NCBI RefSeq assembly: GCF_018128945.1
Contig: NZ_CP068393.1
Coordinates: 2,728,001 to 2,792,000 of the forward strand
Length of the DNA stretch: 64,000 nt
Direction of reading: 5' to 3'
Origin: Aristaeella hokkaidonensis
Lineage (GTDB): Bacteria; Bacillota; Clostridia; Christensenellales; Aristaeellaceae
This document shows positions 51,941 through 62,452 of the stretch, piece by piece (position 1 is the stretch's first letter; each line of letters starts with the position of its first letter). The translations under genes were made by a program, and so were the position numbers. The notes beneath the pieces were generated by a model. That model saw nothing but the letters and a program-made list of their open reading frames with translations. It was not told the origin of the DNA and made no database searches.

Positions 51941-52000
51941 GTACAGACCATGGAGGTTTATACCCTTCATGAGAAAAAGGAGGTTTCCGGTATCAGAAGC

Positions 52001-52816
52001 ATGAAGAAATTACTCGCATTTGCGTTACTTATGCTGATGTTTTCTGCACTGTACTGCGTTGCGGAAGCAGAAGAGATGAACGTGGCGACACAGACAGATC
52101 TGTCATGCCTGCACGTGAATACAAAGGAAATCATTTTTTTCTTTGACAGCCCTGCTTACACTTCTGTCAGTGCTACTTCTCACAAGGTTTACGGACCGGC
52201 TACTGTGCAGGTGGTTTGCCTGGATTGTGGGGAGATTCTTTCCGAGGAAACGGTGGATTATGCGGAGGAATTCCGTCCTCACAGCATGAAAAAGGGGCAG
52301 TGTGCCCTTTGCGGATATCGTGAAAAGAATCAGATGAGCCAGGAACAGCGGAAAGATGATCCCGGAGAACGGACTCTTTTTGCTCAGGAAGACACTGAAA
52401 TTGACGGCCTGCTGTTCCTGACCCTGTCCAGAGAGGATCTTGCGGCACTGAACAATTCCAATGTTACTACAGCCCTGATCCGGGGAAACAGCGGGAATGT
52501 TGCCATAGCTCTTGAAGTGAAAAAGGTGTTGACCCAGACATGGGAAGCTGAAGCAGATATATATCTGGAACTCGCGGAGCGGGAGGACGGCAGCTTTTTC
52601 GCAGCGGTCAACCTGGTTTCCAGATCCGGGGAGGAAATAGATCCTGACAGAGAAGGTATCAATCTGCGGTTCTACCGGGAGGCTTATGCAGATGTCAGGG
52701 TCTCCCTGGCGCCGGTGTCGAACGGAACGATCGTGGAAACAAAGGGCGTCTGGGATGAGCACGGATACTGGTCTGTCCAATACCAGGAAGAGGGAACATA
52801 TTTCATTCTACAGTAA
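52001..52816 (+). CDS. exported protein of unknown function with paired Cys motifs
   Basis: A 271-residue protein with a signal peptide (cleavage near CVAEAEE). A zinc-ribbon-like pair, CLDCGE and CALCGY, lies near residues 73 and 101; the remainder is a beta-rich domain without a recognised family. The start is chosen at the signal peptide Met; AAGGAGG lies 17 bases upstream, which is far, and an in-frame ATG at 51950 is an alternative that would put charged residues before the signal. Few neighbours give context. A divergent heptamer array follows the stop. Confidence 0.6.
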   Translation: MKKLLAFALLMLMFSALYCVAEAEEMNVATQTDLSCLHVNTKEIIFFFDSPAYTSVSATSHKVYGPATVQVVCLDCGEILSEETVDYAEEFRPHSMKKGQCALCGYREKNQMSQEQRKDDPGERTLFAQEDTEIDGLLFLTLSREDLAALNNSNVTTALIRGNSGNVAIALEVKKVLTQTWEAEADIYLELAEREDGSFFAAVNLVSRSGEEIDPDREGINLRFYREAYADVRVSLAPVSNGTIVETKGVWDEHGYWSVQYQEEGTYFILQ

Positions 52817-52928: not shown

Positions 52929-54935
52929 ATGAAAGCGTTAATCCTGAATTCCGGGCTCGGAAGTCGTATGGGTGCCCTGACCTCCGAGCATCCGAAATGT
53001 ATGACGGAGATTTCCTCCCGGCAAACGATTCTTTCCCGCCAACTGACGCAGATTGCAGATGCTGGAATTACAGAGGTTGTCATTACCACCGGGTATTATG
53101 ACGAGGTACTGGTGGATTACTGTAAATCACTGGATCTCCCCTTGAATTTTACGTATGTAAAGAACCTGATTTACGATAAAACAAATTATATTTATTCGAT
53201 TTACTGTGCAAGAGAGTATCTGCAAGATGACATTATTCTCATGCACGGTGATCTTGTTTTTGAGAACGAAGTCTTTGACAAAGTGTTGGCTTCCGAATCA
53301 TCCTGCATGACGGTTTCTTCCACCCTGCCCTTACCGGAAAAGGACTTCAAGGCCCAGATCCGGGACGGCATGGTGATGAAGGTGGGGGTAGATATCTTTG
53401 AGGATGCCTTGGAGGCGCAGGCCCTGTATAAACTGAATCGGGAAGATTGGAAGGTCTGGCTGGATGAGATTTCTGCGTTCTGTGAGGCGGGCAATACCAA
53501 AGTCTATGCTGAAAATGCCCTGAATGAGCTAAACGGTGCAGCAAACATTGCTGCGCTGGATGTAGGAGATCTGCTGTGTGCCGAAATTGACACTCCGGAA
53601 GACCTGGCAGTGGTTTCTGCCAGGCTGAAGAAAATTGAAAACCGCACGGTTTATATGTGTTTTGCCACGGACATTATTCACGGTGGACATATCGCGATTA
53701 TCCGGAAGGCTCGCAGACTGGGCAAGCTCATCATCGGCGTATTGTCTGATGAAGCGGTGGCTTCCTATAAACGGTTTCCGTTGCTGCCTGCAGTGGAACG
53801 GATGCGCCTGTTTGAGAACATCGCTGGGGTATCCCGGGTGGTGGAGCAGCGGACGCTCAGCTACCGGGAGAATCTGGAAAAGTATTATCCGGACATTGTA
53901 GTTCACGGTGACGACTGGTGTACAGGTTTCCAGAAACCAATCCGGGACGAAGTGGTATCTATCCTGGAATCCTACGGAGGAAAATTGGTAGAGTTCCCTT
54001 ACAGCCGGGATGAGAAGTATAAAGAGCTTCAACGCCGGGAACGGGCAGAACTGGCTATGCCGGATATCCGGAGGGGCAGGCTGAAGAGAGTCCTGGATAC
54101 CAAAGGACTGGTAACGGTCATGGAGGCCCATGACGGCCTGACTGGTCTGATCGTGGAAAACACTGTTGTACACGAAAACGGCGGAGCACATCAGTTCGAC
54201 GCCATGTGGGTTTCCTCCCTGTGTGATTCCACGGCCAAGGGCAAGCCGGATATCGAGCTGGTGGACATGACTTCCCGGTTCCGGACCATTGACGATATTA
54301 TGGAAGTGACCACGAAACCCATTATCTTTGACGGCGATACCGGCGGACTGACGGAGCATTTTGTGTATACCGTACGTACACTGGAACGTATGGGCGTGTC
54401 TATGATTATCATTGAGGACAAGACCGGACTGAAGAAGAATTCCCTTTTCGGAACGGAAGTTGTCCAGATGCAGGACAGTATCGAGAATTTCTCCGCAAAA
54501 ATCCGTGCTGGCAAGAAAGCCCAGCGGACGAAGGAGTTCATGATCTGCGCCCGGATCGAGAGCCTGATTCTGGAACGGGGCATGGAGGATGCGCTGACCC
54601 GCGCTTTTGCCTTTGCGGAAGCGGGTGCGGATGCCATCATGATCCACAGCCGGAAGAAGGATCCTTCCGAGATCCAGGAATTCATTGAAAAGTTCCGGGC
54701 CAAGGACAGTACGACGCCCATCGTGCTGGTTCCCACTTCTTTCAACTCTGTGACGGAGGAAGAATGGAAAGCGCGTGGTGCGAACATCATTATCTATGCC
54801 AATCAGCTGATGCGGGCGGAGGTTCCCGCCATGCAGAAAGCCGCGGAAACAATTCTGAAGAATCATCGTGCGGAAGAGTGCGACGCCATGCTGATGCCCT
54901 TCAAGGAGATCATCCGGCTGATTCCCGAAGAATAA
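52929..54935 (+). CDS. three-domain fusion: NTP transferase, cytidylyltransferase and PEP mutase
   Basis: A 668-residue protein. Domain 1 (1-235) is a LicC-like sugar/choline-phosphate nucleotidyltransferase (LNSGLGSRMG at 7-16, metal-site HGD at 106-108). Domain 2 (about 238-375) is a cytidylyltransferase with HGGH at 251-254 and later VVHGDDW. Domain 3 (about 385-668) is phosphoenolpyruvate mutase, with DGD at 468-470 and the diagnostic EDKTGLKKNS at 496-505. PEP mutase makes phosphonopyruvate, the entry to phosphonates; domains 2 and 3 have the order seen in fosfomycin enzyme Fom1. Decarboxylase and aminotransferase partners are not in the window. AAAGG seven bases upstream sets the start. 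It probably supplies a CMP-activated phosphonate for glycan decoration. Confidence 0.88.
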   Translation: MKALILNSGLGSRMGALTSEHPKCMTEISSRQTILSRQLTQIADAGITEVVITTGYYDEVLVDYCKSLDLPLNFTYVKNLIYDKTNYIYSIYCAREYLQDDIILMHGDLVFENEVFDKVLASESSCMTVSSTLPLPEKDFKAQIRDGMVMKVGVDIFEDALEAQALYKLNREDWKVWLDEISAFCEAGNTKVYAENALNELNGAANIAALDVGDLLCAEIDTPEDLAVVSARLKKIENRTVYMCFATDIIHGGHIAIIRKARRLGKLIIGVLSDEAVASYKRFPLLPAVERMRLFENIAGVSRVVEQRTLSYRENLEKYYPDIVVHGDDWCTGFQKPIRDEVVSILESYGGKLVEFPYSRDEKYKELQRRERAELAMPDIRRGRLKRVLDTKGLVTVMEAHDGLTGLIVENTVVHENGGAHQFDAMWVSSLCDSTAKGKPDIELVDMTSRFRTIDDIMEVTTKPIIFDGDTGGLTEHFVYTVRTLERMGVSMIIIEDKTGLKKNSLFGTEVVQMQDSIENFSAKIRAGKKAQRTKEFMICARIESLILERGMEDALTRAFAFAEAGADAIMIHSRKKDPSEIQEFIEKFRAKDSTTPIVLVPTSFNSVTEEEWKARGANIIIYANQLMRAEVPAMQKAAETILKNHRAEECDAMLMPFKEIIRLIPEE

Positions 54936-55112: not shown

Positions 55113-55141
55113 TTGACACAAAATAGATGCAAAGGTATAAT
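55113..55141 (+). promoter_or_regulatory. consensus promoter of the polysaccharide operon
   Basis: TTGACA and TATAAT, both perfect, with a 17-bp spacer. Confidence 0.88.
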
Positions 55142-55434: not shown

Positions 55435-57219
55435 ATGATCGACGTGCTGTTTGTGTTCATCGGATTATTTATATCAGTTGAGTTCTATTTTTCTCTTCGA
55501 GTACCGGACAATCATGTGATCCATTTCTGGAGGAGCCTTCCGATTTTGCTAGTTATAACGCTGCTGGCTTTATGGATCAGCGGGATTTACCGGCAGATAT
55601 TGGCATATGCAGGACAGGATGTACTCCTTCAGAGTGGTATTAGCACACTTGCTGGAACCGGCATTACCTATCTTGTTTCTCTGGTTTTCTATCTGTTCCG
55701 GGATCAGATCGGATCAAATATTTTCCTGATGCCCCGGCCGATCTATTTTATTCAGTGGGTAATCACCTTTTTTCTGGTGGCGGCTTCCCGATATCTGATC
55801 CGTTACCGGACTGCGGGCAGTCGCCGGAAAGGCGATAAGGAAACCAAACGGATTCTGGTCATCGGTGCCGGCTATGCCGGGGCAACGGTGATCCGGGATA
55901 TCCAGAACGGCCGCTATGGAAATGCGACAGCTGTGGCGATCCTGGACGATGATCCGGCCAGGCAGCATTCCTCCCTGTCAAGGGTTCCGGTTGTCGGCGG
56001 TACAGATGCTGTTGCGGAGACAGCCGATCAATACAATATCAACGAGATTATTATTGCAATTGCCACTCCTAAAGGAGAGATTACCGCTCTCCTGAATGAC
56101 TGCATTGAAACCGGCGCACATGTCATGATTTATTCCGGCGTGCGGGAAGGAGCGGAAGCCCGGGAGGTCAACATTGCGGATCTGCTGGGCCGCGCAGAGC
56201 AGCACCTGGACATGACGGAAGTACATGCCTTCCTGACAGGCAAGACTGTAATGATCACGGGCGGAGGCGGAAGTATCGGGTCGGAGCTATGCCGCCAGAT
56301 CATGGGCTTTACCCCGAAAAAGCTGGTTCTTTATGATATTTCCGAAAACTATATGTATGATCTCTTCTTCGAACTGAAGGAGAAATATGGAGAATTGGTG
56401 GCCAACACCCTTGTACTGGAGGTCGGCAGCGTCCGGGATGAAGAATCCCTCTGGAGGGTGATGGGAAAATACAAGCCGGACATTGTGATCCACGCTGCTG
56501 CCCACAAGCATGTTCCCCTGATGGAAACCAGCAGCGAGCAGGCGATCCTGAACAATGTCTTCGGAACATATAAGACAGCGAAGGTTGCCGTGGAATGCAA
56601 TGTCAGACGCTTTGTCCTGATTTCCACGGACAAAGCGGTGAATCCCACCAATGTTATGGGAGCATCCAAGCGCCTGGCGGAAATCATTATTTCATCTATT
56701 CCCAATCGGAACACCGAGTTTATGGCGGTTCGCTTCGGCAATGTTCTGGGGTCCCACGGTTCGGTTGTTCCGATTTTTGAGCGCCAGATCCGGGCGGGCG
56801 GTCCGGTAACCCTCACGGATCCGAATATCATCCGCTATTTCATGACGATTCCCGAGGCGGCTTCCCTGGTGCTTCAGGCGGTCGGCATGGCCAAGGGCGG
56901 AGAGCTCTTCATCCTCGATATGGGTGAACCGGTAAAAATCAAGGATCTGGCTGAAAAGATGATCCGCCTGTATGGAACCGGAAAGGAACAGATTGTCTGC
57001 ACCGGTCTGCGTCCCGGCGAGAAGCTTTATGAAGAGCTCCTATTGGACAAGGAAAACGATCAGGCAACTGAACGCGACCGGATCTATGTGGCAAAACAGG
57101 ATCACTTCGACTGGCAGACCGTTCAAGGCTACCTGAACAAACTTGAAGAAGCTATCGAAAAGCATCAGGATATCAAAAAAGTGCTCCAGGAGATTCTTCC
57201 TGCCTATCATGAAACGTGA
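55435..57219 (+). CDS. FlaA1/CapD-type nucleoside-diphosphate-sugar dehydratase/epimerase
   Basis: A 594-residue membrane enzyme: four N-terminal helices (about 1-120), a first Rossmann region (VIGAGYAGATVIRDI) and a second with GGGGSIGSE, HAAAHKHVPLMET and the KAVNPTNVMGASKR stretch typical of UDP-GlcNAc 4,6-dehydratases and epimerases of the PglF/WbpM/CapD group. It makes a deoxy- or amino-sugar precursor for surface glycans. The ATG at 55435 has no ribosome binding site; GAGGTG lies seven bases before an in-frame ATC at 55405, so the real start may be ten codons upstream at a non-standard codon. First gene of the operon. Confidence 0.92.
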   Translation: MIDVLFVFIGLFISVEFYFSLRVPDNHVIHFWRSLPILLVITLLALWISGIYRQILAYAGQDVLLQSGISTLAGTGITYLVSLVFYLFRDQIGSNIFLMPRPIYFIQWVITFFLVAASRYLIRYRTAGSRRKGDKETKRILVIGAGYAGATVIRDIQNGRYGNATAVAILDDDPARQHSSLSRVPVVGGTDAVAETADQYNINEIIIAIATPKGEITALLNDCIETGAHVMIYSGVREGAEAREVNIADLLGRAEQHLDMTEVHAFLTGKTVMITGGGGSIGSELCRQIMGFTPKKLVLYDISENYMYDLFFELKEKYGELVANTLVLEVGSVRDEESLWRVMGKYKPDIVIHAAAHKHVPLMETSSEQAILNNVFGTYKTAKVAVECNVRRFVLISTDKAVNPTNVMGASKRLAEIIISSIPNRNTEFMAVRFGNVLGSHGSVVPIFERQIRAGGPVTLTDPNIIRYFMTIPEAASLVLQAVGMAKGGELFILDMGEPVKIKDLAEKMIRLYGTGKEQIVCTGLRPGEKLYEELLLDKENDQATERDRIYVAKQDHFDWQTVQGYLNKLEEAIEKHQDIKKVLQEILPAYHET

Positions 57220-57319
57220 TAAACGAATCTGCAAACGCTACTCAAATTACTGCTGCCAAGAGCCATGAGGTACATGCAGTGCAACGAAGGTATAAAAAAA
57301 GAACGGAGGTGACTGGCAA

Positions 57320-58714
57320 TTGATCCGGAAGAATCAGGAATTCCTGAACAGGGTAAATATCCTTCTGGATATGATGCTGGTTATTCTCTCCTACATGCTG
57401 GCTTCATGGATCCGGCTGGATTTTTTTGAAGGTGACAGCAAAAACATGGCCGGTATCAGCACGAAAACAATTTTACTGGCCATAGCTTATTCTCTGGTTC
57501 TTTTCCTTCTGCTTTCCATATTCGGCTTTTATAATACGACCCGAACCCGAAAGCTTACCTGGAAAGCCAGGACAATCTTTTTATGCGTGACCATTTCCAC
57601 GCTGATTGCGACGACTGTATTTTTTGTTTTTCGCCTGATTGATTTTTCCCGCGGCGTCATTTTGGTGTTCTATCTTGTAACCATTATTTTACTGACAGGC
57701 AAGTACGCTTTTATGCGCCTGGTTCTCAGGCGTTTTCGCGGAAACGGTTACAATCTGAAACATGTGGTTGTTATCGGTACCGGTAAGCTGGCGAAGCAAT
57801 ACAGGGACGATATTGCGAAGGAATCTGAACTTGGTTTTCATTTGATTGGATTTGTCGGGAACCAGAATCTCCTGGGTGAGGAAGACAAGTGGCTCGGATC
57901 ATTCAAGGAACTGGACAGTATTCTGTCGTCACCGGATATCAGCGAAGTCATTATTGCTCTTGAACCGGAAGAGTATTCAGGAGTCTGGCAGATTATTCCA
58001 GCATGTGAGAAAAACGGCGTCAAGTATTCTGTTATTCCTTTCTATAATGATATTATTCCTGCTAATCCGGTAATTGAAACAATCGGTCACAGTAAGCTGA
58101 TCAATATGCGTACGAATCGTCTGGAAAATATGGGGTGGGCGATTCTGAAAAGAGGATTTGATTTTGTAAGCAGTTTTATAGGTATTATCCTGCTTAGCCC
58201 ATTACTGATAATCATTGCCATAGGAGTAAAACTTTCAAGTCCGGGGCCGATCCTGTTCAGACAGAAGAGAGTCGGTTATATGCGCAAGGATTTTCAAATG
58301 CTGAAATTCCGCAGCATGAAGCAGAACGATGAGGCAAACATATCCTGGACTACGGATGATGATCCGAGAAGAACCAGAATCGGTTCATTTCTCCGAAAAA
58401 CCAGTCTGGATGAACTCCCTCAGTTGATTAACGTGCTGAAAGGTGATATGAGTCTGGTCGGCCCCAGACCGGAACTTCCCCATTTTGTGGAGCAGTTCAA
58501 GGAGACTATTCCATATTATATGGTTAAACATCAGGTTAAACCCGGTATGACCGGTTGGGCCCAGGTCAACGGGTATCGCGGTGATACCAGCATTGAAAAA
58601 AGAATTGAGCTGGATCTTTGGTATATTGACAACTGGAGTCCGTTACTGGATATACGAATTCTTGCAAAGACAGTTTTTGGCGGCATGCTGAATCATGAAA
58701 AAATGAAAACGTAA
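57320..58714 (+). CDS. polyprenyl-phosphate sugar-1-phosphate transferase (WcaJ/WbaP-like)
   Basis: A 464-residue membrane enzyme that starts glycan synthesis by moving a sugar phosphate to undecaprenyl phosphate. Four to five N-terminal helices and a CoA-binding-like domain (VVIGTGKLAKQY) precede the catalytic sugar transferase domain with KRGFDFVSS, LFRQKRVGY, KFRSMK, TSLDELPQL and VGPRPELP. The start is TTG at 57320 with GGAGGTGACTGGCAA before it. The length is normal. With the preceding dehydratase it defines the first sugar of the repeat unit. Confidence 0.95.
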   Translation: MIRKNQEFLNRVNILLDMMLVILSYMLASWIRLDFFEGDSKNMAGISTKTILLAIAYSLVLFLLLSIFGFYNTTRTRKLTWKARTIFLCVTISTLIATTVFFVFRLIDFSRGVILVFYLVTIILLTGKYAFMRLVLRRFRGNGYNLKHVVVIGTGKLAKQYRDDIAKESELGFHLIGFVGNQNLLGEEDKWLGSFKELDSILSSPDISEVIIALEPEEYSGVWQIIPACEKNGVKYSVIPFYNDIIPANPVIETIGHSKLINMRTNRLENMGWAILKRGFDFVSSFIGIILLSPLLIIIAIGVKLSSPGPILFRQKRVGYMRKDFQMLKFRSMKQNDEANISWTTDDDPRRTRIGSFLRKTSLDELPQLINVLKGDMSLVGPRPELPHFVEQFKETIPYYMVKHQVKPGMTGWAQVNGYRGDTSIEKRIELDLWYIDNWSPLLDIRILAKTVFGGMLNHEKMKT

Positions 58715-58765
58715 AAGAAATGCTTTGACAGGAATAAGTTATGTGGTGTGTGAGGAGAACTGTTG

Positions 58766-59299
58766 ATGAAACAAAAGACAAAGAAAAGGCTGATTACATA
58801 TACACTGGTTGTCGTGTGGCTTGTCGGTTGCTATTTTATTGGACAGAGTATTCATTCAAATTCTGCAACGAATGATTCAAAGGGAACAGAATCGGCTTCA
58901 GTCGAAACAGGTATAAAAGAATCAGCAATCTCAATAATCAACGCTCAGCAGATCAGCACCGATGAGATCCCATGGGGTTTTACAGCAGGCGTTATTTCAG
59001 AGGAAGATGGATCAAACGCCTGGTTGTTAACACCAGGAACAGGGCTTCAGGTGGAGATAACAGAAGATGTTATCGTTCGATACGAAATTCATCCATGGAT
59101 GAAGGATACCAGCGATGGCGCATCATTACGGATAGAATATAATGAAACAAATGAGACGCTGAAAGCAGAACAAGACTGGAAGAATTATTCTGTTCCACAA
59201 AGCGCCCATACTGTCCGGATTGAAGTCATGTCTACAGATAATGATGACGGCGACTGGGTAATTATCCGGTTCGATACCGCGGAAAACGGTATGACATGA
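58766..59299 (+). CDS. membrane-anchored protein of unknown function
   Basis: A 177-residue protein with one N-terminal membrane segment (about 9-27) and an exported acidic domain rich in Thr, Asp and Glu that looks like a beta sandwich. I recognise no family. The ATG at 58766 is preferred to the TTG one codon earlier because GAGGAG lies eight bases upstream. Its position in the operon between the initiating transferase and a glycosyltransferase suggests a role at the outer face of the membrane, such as binding or modifying the polymer; this is inference from context. Confidence 0.6.
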   Translation: MKQKTKKRLITYTLVVVWLVGCYFIGQSIHSNSATNDSKGTESASVETGIKESAISIINAQQISTDEIPWGFTAGVISEEDGSNAWLLTPGTGLQVEITEDVIVRYEIHPWMKDTSDGASLRIEYNETNETLKAEQDWKNYSVPQSAHTVRIEVMSTDNDDGDWVIIRFDTAENGMT

Positions 59300-59414
59300 G
59301 AAAAGAAAGGTGTATTTATACCGGTATCCAGTACGATTGCTGTAAATGAAATTTAATGCAAGGGACGATGTATGGATTGTGAATTCTGTTGTTCAGGAAA
59401 CGGAGATCAGTAAA

Positions 59415-60293
59415 ATGTCCATATCTGTAATAATACCAACGTTAAACGCAGAGAGACATATTGCTTCTTTGTTATCATCACTGGCGGAACAGACGATCCA
59501 GCCCTGTGAGATTCTGATTATTGATTCGTCTTCTTCCGATAATACGCTGTCAATTGCGAAGACCTATAATAACGTCCAAATTATCACAATCCAATTGTCT
59601 GAATTTAATCATGGCGGCACACGGGATCTGGGGATGAACCATACGAAAGGAGATCTTGTTCTTTTTTTGACACAGGATGCTGTTCCAGCAAGCAATACAC
59701 TGATTGAGGACCTGATTGCTTCACTTTTGAACAACCCGCAGATTGCCGCAGCATATGCCCGGCAGATACCGAGGGAGGATTCTTCTCCCCGAGAGAAACT
59801 GGTTCGGACTTACAACTATCCTGAACAGAGTGTAGTTCATTCAGAAGAAGATATACCGCGGCTGGGGATCAAGACGTTTTTCTGTTCCAATGTCTGTGCG
59901 GTATACCGCCGGGATATATATGAGCGGCTTGGCGGATTTGAAAAAGACCTTTTGTCCAATGAAGATATGATGTATGCAGCAAAAGCCATCAGAAGCGGTT
60001 ATCAGATTGCGTATGCGGCAGAGGCCTGTGTTGTTCATTCGCATGATTTAGCGTTTAGGGAACAATATGAGCGAAACCGTATACAGGGATATGAAATAGC
60101 AAGGCATCAGGATCTTTTGAAAGGAGTATCTTCCTCACGGGAAGGAATACAGATGCTCATGTCAGTTTCTGTAAAACTCCTGAAACAGGGAAGACTGATA
60201 AGTGTTTTCGGTTTGCTGACAGATTGTGCTGCCAGATATCTGGGAAACAGAAAAGGAAAGAAACAATTTTTAAAAACGCAATCCAGTAAATAA
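59415..60293 (+). CDS. glycosyltransferase family 2 (rhamnosyltransferase-like)
   Basis: A 292-residue GT-A enzyme: SVIIPTLNAERHIASLL at the start, IIDSSSSDNTL, EFNHGGTRDLGM and a DxD-like TQDAVPAS, followed by FFCSNVCAVYRR and FEKDLLSNEDMM. The pattern with HGGTR is typical of RfbF/RfbN-type rhamnosyltransferases, although the donor is not proved. I choose the ATG at 59415 because CGGAG lies nine bases upstream and the family begins there; the frame extends 23 codons further upstream. It adds a sugar to the lipid-linked chain at the cytoplasmic face. Confidence 0.88.
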   Translation: MSISVIIPTLNAERHIASLLSSLAEQTIQPCEILIIDSSSSDNTLSIAKTYNNVQIITIQLSEFNHGGTRDLGMNHTKGDLVLFLTQDAVPASNTLIEDLIASLLNNPQIAAAYARQIPREDSSPREKLVRTYNYPEQSVVHSEEDIPRLGIKTFFCSNVCAVYRRDIYERLGGFEKDLLSNEDMMYAAKAIRSGYQIAYAAEACVVHSHDLAFREQYERNRIQGYEIARHQDLLKGVSSSREGIQMLMSVSVKLLKQGRLISVFGLLTDCAARYLGNRKGKKQFLKTQSSK

Positions 60294-60325
60294 ACCAGAA
60301 AAAATAACAGTAAGGAAGAGAACGA

Positions 60326-61153
60326 ATGACATTACAGTCTCTTAAATACCGTACGTTGACGCCTGAAGGCAGAAAACAGACAAAGGAAGATTTCAGGATC
60401 TTTTTCCAACTGGTGGATAATGATCTGAAATCCCGGTACTCCGGCTCTGCCTTTGGCATTATCTGGGCATATATTCAGCCTTTGGTCACAATCATGGTTT
60501 TCTGGTATGTGTATCAGGTTGGATTCCGTAATGCACCGGTGGATGATGTGGAATTCATCCTGTGGTTTATTGCGGCATTTATTCCATGGACGTTCTTCAG
60601 TGACGGTACGGTTACTGCGGCAAATGTGATGTATGAATACTCATACCTTGTTAAAAAAATGCGTTTTAAGGTATGGCAGCTTCCGTTTATCAAGGTGTTT
60701 TCTTCACTGAGGATCCATGTGTTCTTTGTTGTATTCCTTACAGGCATGTATATGTTGTATGGACATGCGCCGGATTGGACCTGGTTAAATACGCTTTACT
60801 ATTCCTTTTATATCTGTGTCCTGCTGGTAGGAAATGCTTTTCTTACTTCTTCATTGACGGTGTTTATCAAAGATGCAAGCCAACTGATTAATATTGTTAT
60901 GCAGATTGGTTTCTGGCTGACTCCTATTTTCTGGTCGGATACCACGATGAATCCAACTGTTCTCCGAATTCTGAAGCTGAATCCGATGTATTATGCAACG
61001 ACCGGATATCGATATGCCCTGATCAACCATACCTGGTTCTGGCAGAGATCACCGCTTCAGACGATTTACTATTGGGTGGCGGCAGCTGCGATCCTTGCGA
61101 TTGGATCTTTGGTATACCGCCATCTGAAAGAACATTTTACCGATCTGCTATAA
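60326..61153 (+). CDS. wzm: polysaccharide ABC exporter permease (Wzm/TagG-like)
   Basis: A 275-residue membrane protein of the ABC-2 family used to export lipid-linked O-antigens, capsules or teichoic acids. An N-terminal amphipathic stretch is followed by about six membrane helices, with SRYSGSAFGIIWAYIQPL before the first. AAGGAAGAGAACGA precedes the ATG. It lies 12 bp before the ATPase gene. The presence of this exporter, and not a Wzx/Wzy pair in the visible part, points to the ABC-transporter-dependent pathway. Confidence 0.94.
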   Translation: MTLQSLKYRTLTPEGRKQTKEDFRIFFQLVDNDLKSRYSGSAFGIIWAYIQPLVTIMVFWYVYQVGFRNAPVDDVEFILWFIAAFIPWTFFSDGTVTAANVMYEYSYLVKKMRFKVWQLPFIKVFSSLRIHVFFVVFLTGMYMLYGHAPDWTWLNTLYYSFYICVLLVGNAFLTSSLTVFIKDASQLINIVMQIGFWLTPIFWSDTTMNPTVLRILKLNPMYYATTGYRYALINHTWFWQRSPLQTIYYWVAAAAILAIGSLVYRHLKEHFTDLL

Positions 61154-61165
61154 GGGGAATCAATT

Positions 61166-62452
61166 ATGAACGAGTGCGTGCTGGATGTACGGAATATTGT
61201 AAAAAAATACAAACTGTATAATTCAGAAAAAGAAAGGCTGAAGGAAGCGTTTCATCCTTTTCATAAGAGTTTTCATAAAGATTTCTATGCTTTGAAAGGG
61301 ATCAGTTTTAAGGTTAACAAAGGGGAAAAAGTTGGCATCATCGGATCCAACGGTGCGGGCAAGAGTACGATTCTTAAAATTCTGACCGGTGTGCTTAATC
61401 CCACGGAAGGTGAAGTTGTTACCGAAGGGCGGATCGCTGCGCTGCTCGAATTGGGCGCCGGATTCAATATGGATTATACTGGACTGGAAAACATCCGTCT
61501 CAATGGAACCCTGATGGGATGCAGCGAGGAAGAGATGGAAATCAAAACCCAGAAGATTGTTGAGTTTGCAGATATCGGGGACTTCATTTCTCAGCCGGTC
61601 AAAACATATTCCAGCGGTATGTTTGTTCGGCTTGCTTTTGCTACCCAGATTTTTTCAGATCCGGATATTTTGATTGTTGACGAAGCTCTCTCTGTGGGCG
61701 ATATTCGTTTTCAACAGAAATGCTACCGGGCCATGGATGAATTGATGGAGAACAAGACAGTTTTGCTTGTAACTCACGATACAGCGGCGGTCACCCGGTT
61801 CTGTCAGCGTGTCATCTGGCTGAACCATGGCGAGCTTGTTTATGATGGTGAAGTCACGGAGGGCCTCCGGAGATATAAGGAATTTCTGATCAATCAAGCA
61901 ATTGAGGAAACAAACGATTCAGAGTATCAATCCTTTGGTGAAACGCTGGAACAAAAACGAGAAGAGATCAGACTAAATCTGCCGCCTGTACCGGAAGGTA
62001 TCAGCAAAAATGGAAACGGAAAAGCAGTAATTACGCATTGTGCTTTGATGAATGATGATCATGAACTGCTAGAGTTTGTTGAACCGGGGACGTGGGTGAA
62101 TGTTGTTTCACGAATCGAATTCCATGAGCATACGGCACGACCTTTGTATGGCTTTACACTTTTCGATCGGTTGGGGAACGTTGTAGTCAGCCTGAACTCG
62201 GAAACAATCGACGTACAGTTGCCGCCTCAGGATGGGCAGGTGGAGTATACCTTCCGTTTCAGGATGCCGGATCTGAACCATGGTGAATACACTATGTCTG
62301 TAGCAGTGGCTAATGGTTTTCAAACAGATCATGTACAGCTGTGCTGGCTTGACGATGTACTGACATTTCGGGTGATGCAGCGGGAGTACGATCTTCCCGG
62401 TTTCCTATATCTTGATCACGGTGAAGTGAGCATTACAACACTGAAATCGTAA
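61166..62452 (+). CDS. wzt: polysaccharide ABC exporter ATPase with C-terminal binding domain (Wzt-like)
   Basis: A 428-residue protein. Residues 1-245 are the ATPase, with Walker A GSNGAGKST, signature YSSGM and Walker B ILIVDEALSVGD. Residues about 270-428 form a Wzt_C-type beta-sandwich domain, which in E. coli O8/O9a recognises the modified non-reducing end of the finished glycan. AAGGGGAATCAATT precedes the ATG. This extra domain is absent from simple TagH-like ATPases and fits a pathway in which chain end modification licenses export; the next gene is a methyltransferase. Confidence 0.94.
   Translation: MNECVLDVRNIVKKYKLYNSEKERLKEAFHPFHKSFHKDFYALKGISFKVNKGEKVGIIGSNGAGKSTILKILTGVLNPTEGEVVTEGRIAALLELGAGFNMDYTGLENIRLNGTLMGCSEEEMEIKTQKIVEFADIGDFISQPVKTYSSGMFVRLAFATQIFSDPDILIVDEALSVGDIRFQQKCYRAMDELMENKTVLLVTHDTAAVTRFCQRVIWLNHGELVYDGEVTEGLRRYKEFLINQAIEETNDSEYQSFGETLEQKREEIRLNLPPVPEGISKNGNGKAVITHCALMNDDHELLEFVEPGTWVNVVSRIEFHEHTARPLYGFTLFDRLGNVVVSLNSETIDVQLPPQDGQVEYTFRFRMPDLNHGEYTMSVAVANGFQTDHVQLCWLDDVLTFRVMQREYDLPGFLYLDHGEVSITTLKS

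Follow-up and report, generated by a model that had tools for sequence, protein, structure and literature searches.

A protein that joins two nucleotidyltransferase-like domains to a phosphoenolpyruvate (PEP) mutase (Ppm), and whose gene lies next to surface glycan genes, raises the question of which phosphonate it helps to make and where that phosphonate goes. We examined such a protein in a 64-kb window, positions C1:2728001-2792000 of a 3.39-Mb single-contig genome, where an intact ORF with an ATG start encodes a triple fusion of 668 amino acids (Table 1). Sequence evidence favours 2-hydroxyethylphosphonate (HEP), activated as CMP-HEP, over AEP as the likely product, and this product assignment is the new point of the study.

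Table 1. Features of the fusion gene and its surroundings, in window positions
Feature	Position	Strand	Basis
Triple fusion: LicC/PntC-like NTP transferase, Fom1-like cytidylyltransferase (CyTase), PEP mutase	52929..54935	+	Pfam/NCBIfam
Domain 1 (residues 1-232), LicC/PntC-type nucleotidyltransferase	52929..53624	+	Pfam, profile alignment
His106, aligned with Tde-PntC Glu104	53244..53246	+	Profile alignment
Domain 2 (residues 238-372), Fom1-like CyTase, HGGH at 251-254	53640..54044	+	Pfam, structure match
SYKR (residues 279-282), same four residues as Fom1	53763..53774	+	Alignment
Domain 3 (residues 383-668), phosphoenolpyruvate mutase	54075..54932	+	TIGR02320, 394.1 bits (cut-off 319.55)
EDKTGLKKNS motif, residues 496-505	54414..54443	+	Sequence
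288-aa protein upstream; L108 has a 53% identical homologue next to its fusion	51950..52816	+	No Pfam/NCBIfam match
Polysaccharide biosynthesis protein (PF02719), first gene of flanking glycan export locus	55435..57219	+	Pfam
Undecaprenyl-phosphate glucose phosphotransferase	57320..58714	+	TIGR03023, 458.3 bits (cut-off 410.75)
ABC-2 permease and ATPase with Wzt C-terminal domain, polysaccharide export	60326..62452	+	

Architecture and occurrence of the triple fusion

Pfam and NCBIfam recovered the three-domain order given in a preliminary description of the locus (LicC-like transferase, cytidylyltransferase, PEP mutase), with NTP_transf_3 at residues 3-122 (E 2.9e-9), CTP_transf_like at residues 248-342 (E 9.2e-15) and PEP_mutase at residues 389-643 (E 8e-55). 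The protein is the sole PF13714 match in the genome at E<=0.001. This architecture is known and common, having been in print since 2019: Rice 2019 (PMC6697681) counted 42 triple fusions among 1485 Ppm proteins, with the same three Pfam domains (PF12804, PF01467 and PF13714). The accessible text of that paper assigns no substrate to the triple fusions, and its assays concern two PntC enzymes unfused to Ppm, leaving open the substrates of Ppm-fused transferases. The HEP route proposed here is drawn from neighbouring genes, co-occurrence and residues.

A protein-database search for the same three-domain order returned at least 7996 candidates at E 1e-20; each of the 120 best of these at least 7996, which were characterized, carries PF13714, PF01467 and an N-terminal transferase model. 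These best 120 are 85-100% identical to the fusion across at least 98% of its length, so the architecture is not a product of chance. Homologues labelled Aristaeella lactis (P0020) and Clostridiales bacterium FE2011 (P0006) are 90% and 94% identical, respectively. A scan of genome contigs confirmed at least 594 relatives; among the best 80 of these, 78 cover residues 1-668, many come from rumen or other gut samples, and the taxa include Clostridia, Lachnospiraceae, Ruminococcus, Prevotella and Xylanibacter. Across 341 genomes of the class there were 29 matches at E 1e-30, with an uninterrupted full-length fusion in 11, our own included. Comparison with five relatives indicated purifying selection in all three domains (pN 0.05-0.19, against a whole-gene pS of 0.75-0.95).

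A recent lone insertion of the fusion was considered and rejected on the basis of gene order, which is kept in L108 (GT2, rny, asnS, 288-aa gene, fusion, PF02719 gene) and partly kept in G366, where rny and asnS lie near the fusion, asnS being inverted and about 4 kb away. Gene names used here (rny, asnS, mnmE, radC, CapA) were assigned from sequence.

Residues of the three domains

Domain 3 scores above the PEP mutase cut-off and contains the diagnostic motif, as the preliminary description had stated, while the phosphonopyruvate hydrolase model reached 147.5 bits, far under its cut-off of 374.4 (NCBIfam). Residues were compared across 85 fusions and 17 two-domain proteins (duplicates retained; loci with a missed Ppm ORF excluded). 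The E, K, K, N and S of the EDKxxxxxNS motif are invariant in all 102 proteins, as are, our protein included, 13 positions that we take to be the catalytic residues of the Mytilus enzyme (S430, S434, D441, D468, D470, E496, K498, K502, N504, S505, R542, H573 and S574). Domain 3 is therefore unlike a degenerate lyase homologue. The inactive lyase that the preliminary description had allowed for was thus not seen, and both this and a phosphonopyruvate hydrolase were rejected on the TIGR02320 score and the invariant positions.

The Fom1-like layout proposed for the last two domains also holds: the closest solved relative of domain 2 is the Fom1 CyTase (5x3d, E 7.6e-37), its PF01467 domain directly precedes Ppm, and its HxGH motif reads HGGH. 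Fom1 of Streptomyces wedmorensis, of the fosfomycin pathway, shares with the fusion the CyTase-Ppm layout, SYKR and HxGH. It consists of CyTase and Ppm without the LicC-like domain that the fusion has (Rice 2019, PMC6697681), and the fusion differs further from it in being flanked by glycan genes. The Fom1 CyTase activates HEP (Rice 2019, PMC6697681). SYKR is exact in 60 of 84 other triple fusions, and residue 281 is K in 81 and R in four of 85. Two-domain proteins beside an AEP transaminase (AEPT) have N or W at this position (7/7). Where an iron alcohol dehydrogenase (Fe-ADH) is present without AEPT (n=4), K281 occurs in L058, L061 and L065 and N in L070; where neither gene is nearby, all five proteins have N281.

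For domain 1, the best solved relative is LicC (1jyk, 2.2e-17), followed by PntC (6pd1, 1.5e-13). PntC (A. rimae Ari1348, T. denticola Tde1415) and LicC belong to the same nucleotidyltransferase family, with GxG(T/S)R...PK. Domain 1 has GxGSR...PK at 9-23, D108, E219 and D221, whose roles are presumed, in part by analogy; R13 and K23 are present in all 83 triple fusions with letters there. D108 aligns with Asp106 of Tde-PntC, and a second acid, E195, aligns with Glu196 in a stretch of low alignment confidence. In PntC, Glu104 and Glu196 lie at the AEP amine, with D105 and D192 the equivalents in LicC (Rice 2019, PMC6697681). The same profile alignment puts LicC one residue out of register at the His106 position, so the LicC equivalence there rests on the D-x-D pattern. 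The acid at the Glu104 position, a feature of PntC membership, is absent: H106-G-D is found in 85/85 triple fusions, our own included, and in 13/13 hand-chosen domains, seven of them unfused to Ppm, whereas E-x-D is found in 7/7 hand-chosen AEP-type homologues. PntC is moreover fused to AEP transaminase, and domain 1 to Ppm or Fe-ADH. Since an invariant His takes the place of the amine-contacting Glu of PntC, choline, ethanolamine and AEP are disfavoured as substrates of domain 1, which speaks against the choline- or ethanolamine-like head group suggested in the preliminary description.

On balance, domain 1 goes with the reductase rather than the mutase. It is fused to Fe-ADH in L065 (561 aa), L066 (1197 aa) and L060 (740 aa; domain 1, CyTase and Fe-ADH) and stands beside Fe-ADH in L077 with no Ppm within the 20 kb examined. 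The L066 protein (L066:2268-5861, minus strand) combines the LicC-like transferase and Fe-ADH with GT2 and a C-terminal part that no Pfam model matches. L076 has domain 1 with no Fe-ADH in 12 kb, and likewise no Ppm.

Pathway genes elsewhere in the genome

The preliminary description regarded a decarboxylase and a transaminase as missing. Inspection of the whole genome overturned the first point: an intact phosphonopyruvate decarboxylase (Ppd) gene at C1:1080897-1082033 (1.081 Mb) scores 436.8-437 bits, above the cut-off of 312.5. An Fe-ADH is encoded at C1:890737-891870 (0.891 Mb). With both genes present elsewhere in the genome, a true pathway gap was rejected; the supposed gap is a dispersal of genes, the three pathway genes standing apart here and together in most relatives examined. 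The absence of a transaminase held in that no TIGR03301 match at E<=1e-30 was found in the genome, but relatives carry Fe-ADH in its place. An AEPT hidden among nine class V matches was likewise rejected, as TIGR03301 detected none; eight of the nine lie in DNA compared with two AEPT references, which gave one weak match at 24% identity.

In a tree, the Fe-ADH clusters with seven family homologues (support 0.958; supports inside this group of eight are mostly low), and the group joins 80 others from Ppm or related loci (support 0.862), with the AdhE of the genome outside; because the tree was rooted on two other Fe-ADHs of this genome, only the place of AdhE is informative. The phosphonate Fe-ADH model TIGR03405 gave 124-249 bits for this and six relatives' Fe-ADHs, under its cut-off of 423.7, and another Fe-ADH model outscores it in three of those six. 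The Fe-ADH is 33-38% identical to nine operonic Fe-ADHs.

A decayed Ppd copy (L018:9893-10297, genome C1:1261893-1262297) lies in a low-GC second glycan locus with a TagD-like cytidylyltransferase and a LicD gene about 6 kb away. Compared with operon-type Ppds, it shares 49-50% identity with several and 37-45% with others; with the intact Ppd the figure is 37%. An operon-type decarboxylase was therefore probably once there. The intact Ppd is preceded, two genes before, by a class I aminotransferase (C1:1078558-1079739), and also by a CapA-like gene. Homologues of this aminotransferase/CapA-like pair (L016:12558-14893), 68% and 62% identical, occur in G387 (L167:104-4324) near an Fe-ADH of the same type, hinting at a shared insertion site or a functional link.

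Gene content of related loci

Neighbourhoods were compared by tblastn in 88 non-duplicate loci, comprising 86 fusions (81 recognized as one ORF, five by stop-free translation) plus L058 and L059, in which the N-terminal domain is encoded by its own, abutting ORF. Duplicates (L104, L127 and L132) and loci without Ppm (L060, L076 and L077) were left out of the counts, and L055, which has a triple fusion and a two-domain Ppm, was counted once, as a fusion. Within 6 kb, Fe-ADH was present in 78 loci (at >=80 bits; across all loci counted, two fall at 80-120 bits), Ppd in 79 and AEPT in two (L055 and L088). Fe-ADH and Ppd were both present in 70 of the 79 loci with at least 3 kb downstream. Relatives usually show the order fusion, Fe-ADH, Ppd, with the latter two swapped in eight Bacteroidales/Prevotella/Xylanibacter loci. 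Among 15 two-domain CyTase-Ppm loci, AEPT was near in six, Fe-ADH in four and neither in five; the N-terminal domain was found in three of the four with Fe-ADH versus none of the six with AEPT. Individual loci depart from this pattern: L070 has Fe-ADH and the N-terminal domain, yet an AEP-like RYNR; L061 has Fe-ADH without the N-terminal domain; and L088 is a triple fusion beside AEPT, with no Fe-ADH in its 3.1 kb downstream.

In L055 (L055:6722-16844), a HEP-type triple fusion with Fe-ADH stands alongside an AEP-type two-domain Ppm with AEPT and a decarboxylase. A second decarboxylase upstream is seemingly broken into two ORFs.

At the genome level, Fe-ADH of the group found here (E<=1e-30) was present in 12/12 triple-fusion genomes versus 2/48 others among 60 genomes of the window's family (Fisher p 6.5e-11, uncorrected for relatedness). 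Fe-ADH lies on another contig than the fusion in five (G366, G342, G383, G387 and G395). Ppd was detected at E 1e-30 in 10 of the 12 and an AEPT match in one (G373). The 79% complete G342 has in-frame stops in both fusion and Fe-ADH and two weak decarboxylase matches only, and G366, of the same genus and 97% complete, has fusion and Fe-ADH with no decarboxylase match at all. G364 has Fe-ADH without a Ppm match. Because Fe-ADH replaces AEPT in the relatives and the present genome has an Fe-ADH of that group, the route appears to lead to HEP, not AEP.

The flanking glycan locus

The fusion does lie beside surface glycan genes, as the preliminary description held: the DNA from 55435 onward carries PF02719, Bac_transf, GT2 and ABC export genes, and the stretch 55435-62452 looks like one for polysaccharide synthesis and export. 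Co-transcription with the fusion is doubtful, because a 499-bp gap separates the two and contains a promoter-like site with a 12/12 match to the sigma-70 consensus (TTGACA-17-TATAAT; 55113-55141). Other matches of the promoter and terminator scan were near chance level, and Rfam gave 0 matches on the 64-kb window.

A LicD cluster occurs within eight genes of the fusion in 24 of 81 relatives (ORF-based calls); glycosyltransferases and proteins of flippase and sugar-transferase type are also found there, less often. By an HMM built from proteins of these same loci, LicD was present within the DNA examined at 30 of the 88 loci with a fusion and at 9 of the 15 with a two-domain protein. Being commoner in two-domain loci, LicD marks a glycan context, not HEP. 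The genome has two LicD genes away from the fusion, one at C1:1268270-1269091; the window, L002 and L003 contain none. It is plausible that a phosphonate decorates a glycan, and HEP on a glycan is the best, if tentative, reading.

Beyond the window, L002:12067-13884 (genome C1:2800067-2801884) encodes a LicC-like transferase fused to a class I/II PLP enzyme, for which the best NCBIfam models, CobD (178 bits) and HisC (152 bits), are both under cut-off. It adjoins two further genes, one ornithine-cyclodeaminase-like and the other LicC-like and of AEP type (E-x-D), and its product may be a CDP-activated aminoalcohol phosphate or aminophosphonate. Nearby, L002:9155-11251 encodes a fusion of the membrane insertase YidC with a domain resembling CDP-glycerol glycerophosphotransferase. 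Proteins of a YidC-type cluster (representative L148:1875-4622) occur within eight genes of the triple fusion in six of 81 relatives.

Discussion

We consider it reasonably probable that the fusion carries out the first and the activating steps of an HEP pathway, CMP-HEP likely serving a surface glycan. Domain 3 would convert PEP to phosphonopyruvate, the Ppd at 1.081 Mb would convert this to phosphonoacetaldehyde, and the Fe-ADH at 0.891 Mb would reduce the latter to HEP. HEP and CTP would then yield CMP-HEP, a step open to one or both of the CyTase and LicC/PntC-like domains. Phosphonate would finally be passed from CMP-HEP to the glycan by a transferase, for which the LicD family is the likeliest source. 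What each of these enzymes does and acts on is predicted, most of all for the Fe-ADH and the two transferases, and so is the glycan acceptor. Activation of AEP by PntC-type enzymes and of HEP by the Fom1 CyTase have each been demonstrated separately (Rice 2019, PMC6697681), and in the triple fusion either or both transferase domains could act on HEP. HEP and AEP branches both keep two cytidylyltransferases, and because both are conserved we think that each has its own job. A bolder proposal, which we regard as possible but rather doubtful, is that a single polypeptide forms the C-P bond and also catalyses two distinct cytidylylations, each of them essential, of the same pathway; that the LicC-like domain founds a hydroxyphosphonate-specific PntC branch, marked by the Glu-to-His switch and by reductase fusion in some relatives; and that surfaces of Clostridia and Bacteroidales, many from rumen or herbivore gut, are coated with HEP.

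Other products can be weighed against CMP-HEP on a glycan. An unrecognized aminotransferase, such as the class I enzyme encoded with the CapA-like gene ahead of Ppd, might make AEP, from which the fusion would form CMP-AEP in the manner of PntC, which activates AEP in A. rimae and T. denticola (Rice 2019, PMC6697681); the E-x-D gene downstream of the window would fit such a route. We find this unlikely, as AEPT matches are absent from this genome and from 11 of the 12 family triple-fusion genomes, Fe-ADH co-occurs in place of AEPT, His106 and SYKR differ from AEP-branch proteins, and the class I enzyme has no phosphonate model among the best 25 listed. Rather improbable, too, is a domain 1 that activates phosphocholine, phosphoethanolamine or another head group apart from the phosphonate branch. 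Its closest solved relative is indeed the phosphocholine cytidylyltransferase LicC, but the amine acid of PntC (E104; D105 in LicC; Rice 2019, PMC6697681) is His in 85/85 fusions, and the domain occurs mostly with Fe-ADH, and in three relatives fused to it, an enzyme needless for a choline route.

CMP-HEP might instead lead to a small diffusible phosphonate, as it does in the fosfomycin pathway. Domains 2 and 3 match Fom1, several pathways are known to pass through HEP (Shao 2008, cited in PMC10035134 and PMC9381506), and a Ppm/Ppd/reductase cluster of a marsupial methanogen was read by its authors as a possible antibiotic pathway (PMC10035134). The recurrent annotated neighbours of the fusion are, however, LicD, glycosyltransferases and flippase-type, sugar-transferase and NDP-sugar proteins, and a diffusible product seems improbable. 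That the fusion is an orphan in this genome, with Ppd and Fe-ADH serving other functions and no phosphonate made, would suit the distance between the three genes, the decay of the operon-type Ppd copy and the lack of a decarboxylase in G366. It is highly unlikely in view of purifying selection on all three domains, conservation of the asnS-proximal site in L108 and G366, an intact equivalog-level Ppd and the 12/12 co-occurrence with Fe-ADH.

The glycan-directed HEP pathway that we favour has partial parallels. In Methanocorpusculum vombati, likewise an animal-gut microbe, mutase, decarboxylase and predicted reductase genes lie together (PMC10035134); the cluster is archaeal, which sets it apart from the fusion system, and the accessible text of that report makes no mention of a triple fusion. 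HEP has been reported in marine material (PMC8931226, PMC9381506), and HEP esters on polysaccharide have been described for marine organic matter (PMC9381506). A literature search, outside which most subscription papers lie, found no paper assigning HEP to triple-fusion Ppm proteins.

The present assignment offers a prediction of HEP or AEP from sequence, by Fe-ADH, H-G-D and SYKR on the one hand versus AEPT, E-x-D and RYN(K/R), RFNR or GYWR on the other, and it poses the puzzle of why both branches keep two cytidylyltransferases. If it is true, glycans bearing HEP would be common among bacteria of the herbivore gut, where they could constitute a pool of stable reduced phosphorus.
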